Assembly (NCBI RefSeq): GCF_000600975.2
Contig: NZ_KK088649.1
Span: 142,749 to 206,748 of the forward strand
Length of the DNA: 64,000 bases
Source of the DNA: Limimaricola hongkongensis DSM 17492
GTDB lineage: Bacteria > Pseudomonadota > Alphaproteobacteria > Rhodobacterales > Rhodobacteraceae
Direction: 5' to 3'
Positions 693 through 47,589 of the stretch are shown here, piece after piece (position 1 is the first letter of the stretch; each line of letters begins with the position of its first letter). Both the position numbers and the translations under genes were made by a program. The notes under the pieces were generated by a model, which did no database searches, was not told the DNA's origin, and saw only the letters and a program-made list of their open reading frames with translations.

Positions 693-2846
693 ATGATATC
701 CGCAGACGAGCTGATCGCTCTGGTCCGCAGCTATAACCCGGCCACCCGCGACGCCCTGATCCGCGACGCCTACGCTTTTGGCGAAGAGATGCATGCGGGG
801 CAGTTCCGCAAGTCGGGCGAGCCCTACTTCATGCATCCCATCGCCGTGGCGGAGATCCTCGCGCGCCAGCAGATGGACGACGCCACGATCGTCACCGCGC
901 TTTTGCACGACACGATCGAGGACACCCGTGCCTCGTTTGCGATGGTCGAGGCGCGCTTCAGCCGCGAGATCGCCGAGCTGGTCGACGGCGTCACCAAGCT
1001 GACCAACCTGCAGCTTTCCTCGACCCGCACCAAGCAGGCCGAGAATTTCCGCAAGCTGTTCATGGCGACCTCGCGCGACCTGCGCGTGACGCTGGTGAAA
1101 CTCGCCGACCGTCTCCACAACATGCGCACGATCCGCTCCATGCGGCCCGAGAAGCAGGCCCAGAAGGCGCGCGAGACGATGGAGATCTACGCGCCGCTGG
1201 CGGGCCGGATGGGCATGCAGTGGATGCGCGAGGAGCTCGAGGACCTGTCGTTCCAGGTGCTCAACCCCGAGGCGCGCAACTCGATCATCCGCCGCTTCAT
1301 CATGCTTCAGAAAGAAGCCGGCGACGTGGTCGAGCGGATCACCTCGGACATGCGCACCGAGCTCGACCGCGCGGGCATCGAGGCCGACCTGTTCGGCCGC
1401 GCCAAGAAGCCCTACTCGATCTGGCGCAAGATGCAGGAAAAGGACCAGGGCTTCTCGCGGCTCTCCGACATCTACGGCTTTCGCGTCATCACCGACAGCG
1501 AGGCCGACGCCTACCGCGTGCTCGGCGTGATCCACCAGCGCTGGCGCGCCGTGCCGGGCCGGTTCAAGGATTACATCAGCCAGCCGAAATCCAACGGCTA
1601 CCGAAGCATCCACACCACCGTCTCGGGCCGCGACGGCAAGCGGGTGGAGGTGCAGATCCGCACCCGCGAGATGCACGAGGTGGCCGAAACCGGCGTGGCC
1701 GCGCACTGGTCCTACCGCGACGGTCTTCGGGTCGAGAACCGCTTTGCCGTCGATCCCGCGCGCTGGATCGCGCAGCTGACCGAGCGGCTCGAGACCGGCC
1801 ATGACGACGAGGATTTCCTCGAGGCCGTGAAGCTCGAGATGTACCAGGACCAGGTGTTCTGCTTCACGCCCAAGGGCGAGGTGATCAAGCTCCCCAGGGG
1901 CGCCACGCCGATCGACTTCGCCTTCGCGATCCACACCCGCATCGGCTCCGCCTGCGTCGGCGCCAAGGTGGACGGGCTGCGCGTGCCGCTCTGGACCCGG
2001 CTGAAGAACGGCCAGTCGGTCGAGATCATCACCGCCGACGGCCAGCGCCCGCAATCGAGCTGGATCGAGATCGCGGTGACGGGCCGGGCCAAGGCCGCGA
2101 TCCGCCGGAGTTTGCGCGAGGAGGACCGCGAGCGCTTCGTCAAGCTCGGCTCCGAGCTGGTGCGCGTGGCCTTCGAGAATGTCGGCAGGCGGGCCACCGA
2201 CAAGGCGCTCAGGACGGCGGCCAAGACGCTCGGGCTCGACGGATCGACCGAGCTTCTGGCGCGGCTCGGCTCCGCCGATCTCACCACCCGCGAGGTGGTC
2301 GAGGCGCTCTACCCCGAGCTGGCCGCGCGCGGCGACGCCCAGGAGATCGCGCAGGAACGCGCCGTCGCCGGTCTCGCCGCCGGGCAGAGCTTTCGCCGCG
2401 CGCCCTGCTGCCAGCCGGTGCCGGGCGAGCGCATCGTCGGCATCACCTTTCGCGGCCAGGGCGTGGTGGTCCACGCGATCGACTGCCCGGCGCTGGCGCA
2501 TTACGAGGAACAGCCCGAACGCTGGGTCGACCTGCGCTGGCAGGAAGGCACGCACGCCGCGGTCAACACGGTCGGGCTCGACCTGACCCTGACCAATGAC
2601 GCGGGCGTGCTGGGGCGGATCTGCACGCTGATCGGCGAACAATCGGCCAATATCTCCGACATGACCTTCATCGACCGCAAGCCCGACTTCTACCGCATTC
2701 TCGTCGACGTGGACCTGCGCGATGCCGAGCATCTGCACAGGGTGATGACGGCGCTGGAGGCCGAAACCCACGTCTCATCGATCGAACGGCACCGCGATCC
2801 GGCGCGCGCGGGCACGCCATCGGCCGCCGCCGCGGCCGGGGCCTGA
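693..2846 (+). CDS. rsh: Bifunctional (p)ppGpp synthetase/hydrolase Rsh
   Basis: A 717-residue RelA/SpoT homologue that makes and degrades the alarmone (p)ppGpp. Domains in order: HD hydrolase (about 25-190; HAGQFRKSGEPYFMHP, then LLHDTIEDT near residue 70), synthetase (about 235-350; YSIWRKMQEK, DIYGFRVI, NGYRSIHTT), TGS (about 385-450), a CC-containing zinc-finger-like segment (RAPCCQPVPGERI, about 568) and C-terminal ACT (about 630-705). The synthetase carries RFKD near residue 290, the RXKD form seen in bifunctional enzymes, not the EXDD of RelA. ATG 693 follows a GGGGTAGGA ribosome site; an upstream TTG at 669 is less likely. It should be the only long Rsh if the genome is typical. Confidence 0.95.
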   Translation: MISADELIALVRSYNPATRDALIRDAYAFGEEMHAGQFRKSGEPYFMHPIAVAEILARQQMDDATIVTALLHDTIEDTRASFAMVEARFSREIAELVDGVTKLTNLQLSSTRTKQAENFRKLFMATSRDLRVTLVKLADRLHNMRTIRSMRPEKQAQKARETMEIYAPLAGRMGMQWMREELEDLSFQVLNPEARNSIIRRFIMLQKEAGDVVERITSDMRTELDRAGIEADLFGRAKKPYSIWRKMQEKDQGFSRLSDIYGFRVITDSEADAYRVLGVIHQRWRAVPGRFKDYISQPKSNGYRSIHTTVSGRDGKRVEVQIRTREMHEVAETGVAAHWSYRDGLRVENRFAVDPARWIAQLTERLETGHDDEDFLEAVKLEMYQDQVFCFTPKGEVIKLPRGATPIDFAFAIHTRIGSACVGAKVDGLRVPLWTRLKNGQSVEIITADGQRPQSSWIEIAVTGRAKAAIRRSLREEDRERFVKLGSELVRVAFENVGRRATDKALRTAAKTLGLDGSTELLARLGSADLTTREVVEALYPELAARGDAQEIAQERAVAGLAAGQSFRRAPCCQPVPGERIVGITFRGQGVVVHAIDCPALAHYEEQPERWVDLRWQEGTHAAVNTVGLDLTLTNDAGVLGRICTLIGEQSANISDMTFIDRKPDFYRILVDVDLRDAEHLHRVMTALEAETHVSSIERHRDPARAGTPSAAAAAGA

Positions 2847-2857
2847 TCGGCGGCGCG

Positions 2858-3514
2858 GTGGTCTTCAAGCGGCGCGACAGGCGGTCGGTGGGCCGCGCGG
2901 TGGCCGAGGCGCTCTATCCGCGCGGCGGCTGGCGCCGGGCCTTCGGTTACGTCAAGCACCGGCTGCAGCGCCTGCCCGACACGCCCGAGAAGATCGGCCG
3001 CGGCATCTTTGCCGGCGTGCTGGCGAGCTGGACGCCGTTCTACGGGCTGCATTTCGTGATCGCGGTGATCTTTGCCAAGATCGGCCGGGGCAACATGCTG
3101 GCCTCGCTGCTCGGCACCTTCTTCGGCAACCCGCTCACCTATGTGCCGATCGGCGTGGTCGCCCTGCAGACCGGGTATTTCATCCTCGGCCGTCCGCCCG
3201 GGCGGGGGATCGAAACCTCGCTCATGGACAAGTTCGGCGCCGCGGGTCAGGATCTGTGGCGCAATCTCGGCGCGCTGTTCGGCCCCGAACGCGCCGACTG
3301 GCACGGGCTGGGGCTGTTCTATCACGAGGTGTTCCTGCCCTATCTCGTCGGCGGGCTGCTGCCCGGGCTGATCTCGGCCTTCGCCTGCTACTGGCTGTTC
3401 GTGCCGGTGATCACCGCCTACCAGAACCGCCGCCGCCGCAAGCTGCGCGCCAAGCTTCAGGCCTTGGGAAAAAACCCCGAAATCCCGGCTGACGACGGCA
3501 CGGGTCCGGGCTAG
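2858..3514 (+). CDS. DUF2062 family membrane protein
   Basis: A 218-residue protein beginning at GTG 2858, only 11 bases after the rsh stop. After a basic N-terminus ([11 protein letters not shown]) come hydrophobic segments around residues 48-75, 83-105 and 158-190, with the family pattern [17 protein letters not shown] and [11 protein letters not shown]. The tail is very basic ([12 protein letters not shown]), so it is probably cytoplasmic. DUF2062 proteins are conserved inner-membrane proteins without an assigned reaction. The position between rsh and pdxJ is conserved in Rhodobacteraceae. Function unknown. Confidence 0.88.
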
Positions 3515-46833: not shown

Positions 46834-46966
46834 CGACCGTCGCGACTGCGGAGGATTGACCACAGTTCGGCTTCCCCCACGTAATGTCATATAAATTTCT
46901 GTTTGACGAAGCCGCCTTCCATGCCAGCTTTGGATCAGGCGAAACATAGCGAAAGGAGGTGATCCA

Positions 46967-47023
46967 GTGTCGAGAAGGGTATTGGAGAAATGTGTCGGGA
47001 CAGCTTGGGGAGTGCGTGGCTGA
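46967..47023 (+). CDS. Short ORF (18 residues) with a 15-base Shine-Dalgarno sequence
   Basis: GTG 46967 to TGA 47021 encodes MSRRVLEKCVGTAWGVRG. It is preceded at 46951-46965 by GAAAGGAGGTGATCC, complementary over 15 bases to the usual alphaproteobacterial 16S rRNA 3' end, with optimal spacing to GTG. A TATAAA sequence at 46890-46895 may be a -10 element. The stretch 46834-47178 has no larger gene. The peptide has no recognisable domain; it could be a leader peptide for arfB, a tiny protein, or the translated part of a ribosome-binding RNA. The site itself is clear; the function is unknown. Confidence 0.6.
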   Translation: MSRRVLEKCVGTAWGVRG

Positions 47024-47049
47024 GGCAGCCCTTGGCCGCATGTGACCCC

Positions 47050-47080
47050 AGGTGGACCACGGTCTAACCGGCCCACCTCC
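47050..47080 (+). promoter_or_regulatory. Competing anti-Shine-Dalgarno element
   Basis: CACCTCC at 47074-47080 can pair with GGAGGTG of the short ORF's ribosome site (46955-46961). The overlapping CCACCT at 47073-47078 can instead pair with AGGTGG at 47050-47055, closing a local hairpin. The two pairings exclude each other, the geometry expected of an on/off switch. Seen only by inspection; no energy calculation was done. Confidence 0.45.
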
Positions 47081-47091
47081 TGATCTTCGAA

Positions 47092-47125
47092 GGGTCGTTC
47101 CCCATCGCCGGGAACGGCCCTTTTT
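47092..47125 (+). terminator. Intrinsic terminator upstream of arfB
   Basis: GGGTCGTTCCC (47092-47102), a seven-base loop, GGGAACGGCCC (47110-47120), then five T bases. The 11-bp stem has one G-T pair. It ends 53 bases before arfB and closes the short-ORF transcript, so it is either that unit's terminator or an attenuator for arfB. Confidence 0.88.
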
Positions 47126-47178
47126 GTATGTCGCGCGCGCCCGCGCTATCTGTGGCGCGACGCTCCGGGAGAGGGACC

Positions 47179-47589
47179 ATGCTGAGGATCGACGACCGCA
47201 TCACCATCGAGGATTGGGAGCTGACCGAGCAGTTCACCCGCGCCTCCGGCCCCGGCGGGCAGAACGTCAACAAGGTGAGCACGGCCGTGGAGCTGCGCTT
47301 CGAGGCGGAGCGCTCGCCCAACCTCCCCGATCCGGTAAAACGGCGGCTGAGAAGGCTGGCGGGCCGCCGCTGGACCAATGACGGCGCGGTGCTGATCTTC
47401 GTGCAGGACACCCGCCACCAGCCCCGCAACCGCGAGATCGCCCGCGAGCGGCTGGCCGAGCTGGTGCGCCGCGCAATCGAGGTCCCCAAGCGGCGAATTC
47501 CGACCAAGCCGACCAAGGGCAGCGTCAGGCGGCGGCTGGAGGCGAAGAAGCAGCGCGGCGAGGTGAAGGCGCTGCGCCGCGATCCCTAG
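47179..47589 (+). CDS. arfB: Alternative ribosome-rescue peptidyl-tRNA hydrolase ArfB
   Basis: A 136-residue release-factor-like protein. The catalytic loop ASGPGGQNVNKVSTAVELRF (GGQ at about 26-28) hydrolyses peptidyl-tRNA on stalled ribosomes. The basic C-terminal tail (PTKGSVRRRLEAKKQRGEV) enters the empty mRNA channel. ATG 47179 follows GGAGAGGG. It is a backup to tmRNA trans-translation. An intrinsic terminator and a ribosome-site-like short ORF lie just upstream, suggesting attenuation linked to translation. The stop overlaps the convergent CBS gene. Confidence 0.94.
   Translation: MLRIDDRITIEDWELTEQFTRASGPGGQNVNKVSTAVELRFEAERSPNLPDPVKRRLRRLAGRRWTNDGAVLIFVQDTRHQPRNREIARERLAELVRRAIEVPKRRIPTKPTKGSVRRRLEAKKQRGEVKALRRDP

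Follow-up and report, generated by a model that had tools for sequence, protein, structure and literature searches.

What could be the use of a Shine-Dalgarno (SD) sequence that complements the whole single-stranded tail of 16S rRNA, when all that follows it is an 18-codon open reading frame (ORF), a terminator and then arfB, the gene of a rescue factor for stalled ribosomes? This question was raised by a stretch of 64,000 nucleotides from Limimaricola hongkongensis DSM 17492 (contig NZ_KK088649.1), referred to below as the window. A preliminary description of the window had listed a 15-base SD, an ORF of 18 codons with a GTG start, a CACCTCC strand, a terminator and arfB, and all of these were found in their places (Table 1). 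The GTG start of the short ORF sits 7 bases past GGAGG, and the identity of arfB is supported by a profile search, in which it scored 184.2 bits against NF006718 (cut-off 100).

Table 1. Positions in the window of the predicted RNA, its helices (P1 to P4) and the neighbouring gene
Feature	Position	Strand	Remarks
Predicted promoter of the RNA	46890-46930	+	A/T tract 46890-46898; -35 TTGACG 46903-46908; -10-like CAGCTT 46925-46930; placed by eye
Predicted start of the RNA	near 46937	+	From the promoter placed by eye
Full-length SD, GAAAGGAGGTGATCC	46951-46965	+	Complement of the 16S 3' tail
P3 5' strand, AGGAGGTG (lock)	46954-46961	+	Pairs with 47074-47081; 91.7% (39 sequences) and 92.5% (100 sequences) of cells paired
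P1 start-codon hairpin, TCCAGTGTC / GGTATTGGA	46963-46986	+	95.2% (39 sequences) and 94.1% (100 sequences) of cells paired; few two-sided changes
Short ORF, VSRRVLEKCVGTAWGVRG, 18 codons	46967-47023	+	GTG start, TGA stop; translated from the sequence
P4 5' strand, GCTTGGGG	47003-47010	+	ORF codons 13-15; pairs with 47046-47053
P2 stop-codon hairpin	47016-47039	+	Loop CAGC, stop codon within the stem; compensatory changes above permutation
P4 3' strand, CCCCAGGT	47046-47053	+	Overlaps the AGGTGG of the preliminary description
P3 3' strand, CACCTCCT (anti-SD, lock)	47074-47081	+	CACCTCC at 47074-47080
Intrinsic terminator	47092-47125	+	Hairpin 47092-47120, T-run 47121-47125; two-sided changes in 10 of 10 tested pairs
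arfB	47179-47589	+	Neighbouring gene, counted as outside the RNA; Pfam RF-1, NCBIfam NF006718 (ArfB)

Homologous sites proved to be present in relatives of the host, to an extent not attributable to chance. A covariance model of 39 sequences matched 140 of 150 Rhodobacteraceae genomes (149 genera) at E 0.001, 138 of them at E < 1e-8, and gave no match in the other 10; two family genomes (G015 and G024) have an RNA that belongs to a different peptide type. For the analyses described below, 100 of the 110 family loci L242-L351 were used as a homolog set (left out were L251, L259, L265, L266, L271 and L347-L351). The 14-base core of the SD, AAAGGAGGTGATCC, occurs in a single copy in the 3.19 Mb L. 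hongkongensis assembly, and the 10-base AAAGGAGGTG in five, compared to two for its reversed control. The complement is exact in a family relative (G520, L369), the 16S rRNA of which ends in ggctggatcacctcctttcta; in L. hongkongensis itself it is presumed to be so. No 16S gene was found by a search of its own assembly, an absence that says little because the same search returned none in three of four relatives and was successful in 9 of 14 control genomes. The 15-mer of the preliminary description is present in the window letter for letter, but it is not the conserved unit: it is found in 49 of the 100 homologs, while all 15 pairs with the 16S tail are possible in 80 if wobble is allowed, and at least 14 in 98. 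GGAGGTG is identical in all 100 and each position of AAAGGAGGTG is conserved at 99-100%; the variable positions are 11 (A60/G30/C10), 13 (C95/T5) and 14 (C94/T5).

The fold of the family RNA was assessed by covariation. In the 39-sequence alignment 88.2% of the cells were paired, and two-sided changes were displayed by 24 of 43 pairs, compared to 15.0 in shuffled alignments (0 of 500 as high) and 13-15 in slid controls. The 100 model-aligned matches yielded 92.0% paired cells and two-sided changes in 30 of 43 pairs, compared to 17.9 (0 of 500), in an alignment that leans to the model, although only 3 of its sequences share their core with a build sequence and 97 do not. The terminator had 99.7% of cells paired and two-sided changes in all 10 tested pairs (39 sequences). 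P4 changed two-sidedly in 7 of 8 pairs in the smaller alignment (72.6% of cells paired) and in 8 of 8 in the larger (86.8%). For P2, the paired fraction was 67.3% (outer part) and 89.1% (inner part) in the 39 sequences, which are partly misaligned here, and 86.2% in the 100-match alignment; in an alignment-free comparison of 48 sequences, anchored on the loop, pairs 2-10 were all above permutation, with a small bias caused by an anchor that was chosen for pairing.

Two pairings had been suggested in the preliminary description for the region downstream of the ORF. That of CACCTCC with the SD, designated P3 here, is conserved (91.7% of cells in the 39 sequences). The alternative hairpin AGGTGG:CCACCT found no backing, with 58.7% of cells paired and no excess over shuffles; AGGTGG instead overlaps the 3' strand of P4, another helix with covariation, whose 5' strand lies in ORF codons 13-15. 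Within P3 the strand facing the SD drifts to wobble, with G-U in 39 and U-G in 19 of the 100 homologs at two of the pairs, and the outermost pair is weak (43 of 100). If GGAGGTG were free to change along with its partner, it would be expected to do so; the fact that it is invariant while the partner drifts points to a second constraint on the SD, which is most simply the 16S tail.

Energy predictions suggest what this double engagement may mean. The mean unpaired probability of the SD in the family branch was 0.118, compared to 0.326 in dinucleotide shuffles, and was below 0.25 in 30 of 30 sequences tested (the test included up to 30 sequences per RNA type, 119 in total). Pairing of the SD with 16S rRNA was predicted to yield -28.0 kcal/mol, compared to 12.9 kcal/mol for opening the lock and to -5.0 to -9.2 kcal/mol for ordinary SDs. 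The predicted cost of opening the SD was 3.8-8.9 kcal/mol as long as the nascent RNA measured 40-140 nt, and 12.9-14.0 kcal/mol from 150 nt onwards. As the SD:16S duplex outweighs the lock and ordinary SDs do not, the length of the SD may be read as a need to beat its own lock.

The explanation that we favor, at roughly even odds, is that the locus encodes a stand-alone, self-locked small RNA of about 188 nt, with a promoter and a terminator of its own, which is the Rhodobacteraceae branch of a group of CC2171-like RNAs widespread in Alphaproteobacteria, and is opened by the ribosome. According to this model the maximal SD would pair with the whole single-stranded 16S tail, the anti-SD strand of P3 would shut the same SD bases in cis, and the start and stop codons would each be held in a hairpin of their own; weaker SDs are predicted to fail against the lock. 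Capture of a ribosome, followed by translation of the short ORF, would then open the RNA, and it would be the act of opening, rather than the peptide, that selection keeps. The comparison of homologs establishes the architecture and the fold, together with the conservation of the SD, of the ORF length and of its stop; from these we infer that the RNA is transcribed and translated, that the lock forms in the cell, and that the opened RNA or its anti-SD strand may then have an effect.

The presence of promoter-like sequences agrees with an RNA that stands alone. In 79 of the 100 homologs the best -35-like box upstream of the RNA, of the TTGAC type, starts at -47 to -50, and it is preceded by a conserved A/T tract at -57 to -53 (100 homologs). 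A sigma-54 promoter was also considered for the RNA and was dismissed by eye, the spacing being wrong. The preliminary description had offered two readings of the locus, either a translation-sensing attenuator of arfB or an independent ribosome-binding RNA or tiny protein. The second is favored by the conserved promoter-like box, the terminator, the lack of a shared downstream gene family in other RNA types and the persistence of the RNA in homologs with no arfB found in the flank; the first is not (see below).

One possible explanation for the position of the RNA is indeed that in this family it is the leader of arfB, in which a change in the translation of the ORF would allow readthrough of the terminator, and hence more of the rescue factor, under ribosome stress. 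In 85 of the 100 family homologs the RNA is followed by arfB on the same strand, and in 83 of them within 400 nt; the ORF frame and stop are conserved, and the gap between the T-run and the arfB start (median 44 nt) is shorter than 35 nt in 25 of 76 loci, these being the close arfB copies with a terminator call (77 of 83), excluding L278, where the call was wrong. The association is nevertheless not as constant as would be expected of an attenuator of this gene. The RNA persists, with scores of 116-161 bits, in the 15 homologs that lack arfB in the available flank (1.48-1.68 kb in 14 cases and 488 nt in one), and arfB was found downstream of none of 117 loci of other RNA types, for which the flanks are limited (at least 700 nt downstream in 105); in two such loci (L055 and L098) it is encoded upstream, on the opposite strand. 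Among these 105, no downstream same-strand gene family was shared by more than five loci, so that no fixed downstream gene accompanies the RNA across types. In addition, a phytase-like gene upstream likewise remains adjacent to the RNA (on the same strand and no more than 1.2 kb away in 43 loci), and therefore the closeness of arfB can be accounted for by conserved gene order alone.

The terminator and the arfB upstream region may also speak against a leader. Among the 60 best column pairs no run of neighboring pairs formed a helix competing with the terminator, though weak or unaligned helices could escape such a survey; a candidate antiterminator noted by eye, CCGACCC against an arm of the terminator, had no matching covariation among the best column pairs and was discarded. 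In 60 loci in which the arfB start codon coincides exactly with the first residue of the query, a TANNNT box was found at -12 in 11 cases and in at most two at any other position, compared to 3.5 expected from mononucleotide shuffles over the entire -16 to -10 interval. In the window, a promoter-like TTGTAT-17-TATCTG was read by eye at 47124-47152. Such sequences would fit a promoter that belongs to arfB itself, and often a leaderless mRNA, in some of the genomes. It was also observed that the T-run of the RNA terminator is often located near the -35 of arfB (L242-L346), as if terminator and promoter overlap. Attenuation of arfB is thus rejected by synteny as a general function and is made less likely within the family by the promoter-like sequence; it is unlikely to be the main function of the RNA, and we consider the arfB leader improbable. 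Homologous sites beside unrelated genes, sharing neither peptide nor structure, had been named in the preliminary description as evidence against arfB attenuation; outside the family type this is largely the case, as the neighbors and the peptides differ, though the 5' block, a short ORF and a terminator are shared.

An additional scenario is that the transcript is a tiny messenger, and that a peptide of 14-31 residues, made at a very high rate, is its product. Nearly all homologs have a short ORF, and its spacing is constant. Its length is 18 codons in 92 of the 100 family homologs, ended by three different stops (TGA in 45, TAG in 34 and TAA in 13), and the codon of Thr12 is ACA in all 92; TGG was not encountered at codon 19 in any of the 100. 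Over codons 2-12 the pN/pS ratio was 0.64 in frame, compared to 1.13 and 1.07 out of frame, and was lower in frame in 100 of 100 bootstraps. This difference vanishes over codons 3-10 (0.95 in frame, compared to 0.68 and 0.84), so that the signal comes from codons 2 and 11-12, where the peptide may be under a weak constraint. The ratio for the whole ORF was 0.84 in frame, compared to 0.77 and 0.78 out of frame, in the larger set, and for codons 2-18 it was 0.87, compared to 0.75 and 0.84, in the first set of 47 sequences. The conserved C-terminus expected of a ribosome-arrest leader peptide is absent: the residues of codons 13-18 vary, with a pN/pS of 1.05. A conserved peptide product was rejected on the lack of a signal over codons 2-18 (47 sequences) and over codons 3-10 (larger set). 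The codons of the ORF moreover build covarying helices, and between lineages the peptides differ beyond their first two residues. It appears that the start, the stop and the frame are kept while most letters of the ORF are set by the RNA, with little sign of selection on amino acids, and we regard the tiny messenger as rather unlikely. A point in its favor may be SEP1 of Sinorhizobium meliloti, which in the available text of PMC10117765 has the length of a 23-codon version of the ORF and a pI of 4.18, and which is possibly its homolog. This version (e.g. MSSDFVFQNVASADCTFGKQSSR) was observed in L357-L361, in 6 Mb genomes of one family; its predicted pI is 5.4-5.7.

To place the self-locked RNA among known families, the window was compared with Rfam. 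Its match to RF01867 (CC2171), 34.9 bits with E 6e-6, is below the gathering score of 75 but covers model positions 1-159. The only Rfam match in the window above the gathering score is a serC leader RNA (RF00517; 54601-54652, minus strand; 70.1 bits). Ten of 54 other motif loci pass the RF01867 cut-off with a match that covers the motif, all of them of other RNA types (L005, L160, L163, L168, L169, L171, L174, L038, L065 and L068). In a sample of the class, RF01867 matched 69 of 290 genomes at E 0.001, a count that includes likely false matches, and scored above the cut-off in 10; of 67 loci from the RF01867 search, among which 4 occur twice, 7 lack the SD motif (4-5 mismatches). Among the 14 control genomes, a match was obtained in Caulobacter vibrioides only. 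In one full-length alignment, the 5' block AACAANNGAAAGGAGGTGATCC-N-NTGTC and the terminator are common to the window RNA and CC2171. The CC2171 helix CAUUGUC/GACAAUG is not kept in the window, its 5' strand being partly aligned and its 3' strand largely deleted; in the 67 loci this helix (CATTGTC/GACAATG) reaches 7 pairs in 39 cases, compared to 29.4 when the 3' strands are swapped between loci. Judged by its sequence, the window RNA looks like a sub-threshold relative of CC2171.

The motif itself is common in the class. Its exact form, AAAGGAGGTGATCCANTG, was present in 41 of 387 class genomes, and its reversed control in none; the looser AAAGGAGGTGRTCYNNTGTC was present in 39 of 71 alphaproteobacterial genomes, compared to none of 128 other Pseudomonadota (a split counted from the table). 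A scan of named contigs returned at least 120 motif records; of those listed, three (L032, L087 and L143) are contigs of metagenome-assembled genomes (MAGs) named Gemmatimonadetes, Nitrospinota and Acidobacteriaceae, and unless these are mis-binned the restriction of the motif to the class may not be absolute. The peptides fall into several types: MSRxxLExGVGT, mainly in Rhodobacteraceae, MSHCH...TWILAS, MSSE...EQP and a 14-residue Bradyrhizobium form, with little in common beyond MS. The 117 loci of other types mentioned above were grouped by peptide type and include a few odd ones (long exported-protein ORFs and other-phylum records). A terminator was called in all peptide types, in 184 of 202 distinct records (216 less 14 duplicates; the simple caller made no call in 18), and the median length from the motif to the T-run was 150-174 depending on the type.

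The lock is less evident outside the family type. The SD was not sequestered in the SHCH and SSE types (unpaired 0.362 and 0.375, compared to 0.296 and 0.335 in shuffles), nor was it less accessible than expected in the Bradyrhizobium type (0.298, compared to 0.313), and in a small group of other loci it was more open (0.434, compared to 0.329). In every type, the best duplex that the SD can form with a downstream strand nonetheless exceeded the shuffles in strength (median ranks 0.05-0.18). Covariation with the downstream strand was sought in 104 distinct records, out of 184, in which the last C of the SD takes part in the best duplex: nt 14 could pair in 57 of the 104, compared to 50.6 upon permutation (p 0.0075), and nt 15 in 64, compared to 44 (0 of 2000), both without correction for common descent. 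This covariation in the other types is modest and may be a lineage effect. A thermodynamic lock universal to all RNA types was accordingly set aside, the accessibility test being unsupportive outside the family type and only the weaker test of duplex potential positive everywhere.

These differences bear upon a further possibility, that of a small RNA acting in trans, the CACCUCC of which, set free when ribosomes hold the SD, would block the SDs of other mRNAs. The anti-SD strand is conserved in the family, directly after a conserved CTAACYG, and it is freed only if P3 opens; however, the strand that faces the SD differs in place and in sequence between the types, and anti-SD strands would act very broadly. 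We therefore find such a regulator quite improbable. A broader idea would make the RNA a translational counterpart of 6S RNA, widespread in Alphaproteobacteria, that senses or holds ribosomes: its perfect start site, matching all of the 16S tail, would lure free 30S subunits as a decoy or measure them as a gauge, the anti-SD lock would set the threshold, and a throw-away ORF would release the ribosome. This proposal is speculative, and we think it unlikely.

Among known systems, CC2171 is one of the closest to the self-locked RNA. It is a Caulobacter small RNA that reportedly originates from the work of Landt et al. in 2008. The two have in common the 5' block, the short ORF at a fixed spacing and the terminator, and differ in that the central helix of CC2171 is replaced by P1, P3, P4 and P2 in the window RNA. 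Leader-peptide attenuators and SD-sequestering switches also combine a short ORF, competing SD/anti-SD pairing and a terminator; in contrast to these, the window RNA has no conserved regulated gene across types, no antiterminator was found, and the C-terminus of its peptide is free to vary. According to PMC10117765, rnTrpL/peTrpL of S. meliloti is a small transcript that arises by termination and carries a short ORF, which is translated there, and in this it resembles the window RNA. It differs in being leaderless and in serving as the trp attenuator, whereas the window RNA has a maximal SD and, across types, no downstream gene that stays the same. Extended SD initiation in Staphylococcus aureus shares an SD pairing that is longer than usual, and in the available part of that source (PMC13009471) appears as a general feature of initiation, whereas here there is one exact 14-mer in the genome, in a class where many genes have no SD. 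In Caulobacter, 75.4% of the genes lack an SD (Schrader et al. 2014, PMC4117421), and the part of this study available to us states that two earlier Caulobacter ncRNAs are translated, giving no names in the text.

In the portions available of Rfam 15 and of a Mesorhizobium list, CC2171 is entered as an RNA family with no mention of an ORF or an SD. The literature searched, which was partly accessible and concerned CC2171, alphaproteobacterial and Rhodobacteraceae small RNAs, Caulobacter ribosome profiling, decoy RNAs and ArfB (among the sources were PMC11701678, PMC5596092, PMC5082802, PMC5988900, PMC4287350, PMC4809877 and PMC5107571), contained no description of the window RNA or of a function for CC2171, and no expression or ribosome data for the window RNA. 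The present analysis shows the Rfam family CC2171 in a new light, with a full-length SD and a short ORF as its conserved features, and draws attention to an RNA that occurs nearly throughout a major family of marine and soil bacteria and for which no function is described in the literature searched. If the logic of a lock and a maximal SD holds, this RNA would offer a compact natural system for studying to what extent a ribosome can exploit pairing with the 16S tail, as well as a way to ask whether the cell monitors its free ribosomes by means of an RNA.

Several loci of the other types displayed features of their own. At L160 a tmRNA gene (2721-3018, minus strand) is located ca. 1.2 kb upstream of the CC2171 RNA, an arrangement not seen at the other scanned loci; ARAGORN reported no tmRNA at 56 loci, and missed the incomplete tmRNA of L160 as well. 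A 5' block of the form AAAGGAGGTGATCCAATGTCTCATGG opens an ORF of 56-59 residues, resembling a small exported protein, in L070, L096, L105, L151 and L152; L070, L096 and L105 are named Azospirillum, and L070 and L152, which were scanned, contain no CC2171 match above the cut-off. The 14-residue ORF of Bradyrhizobium, VSYTKRCHLAGIAR (L051, L057, L061, L062, L074 and others), varies solely at residues 3-4 among the Bradyrhizobium loci compared, and in the predicted fold the SD is paired with the codons for its residues RCHL, CGCTGTCACCTC.
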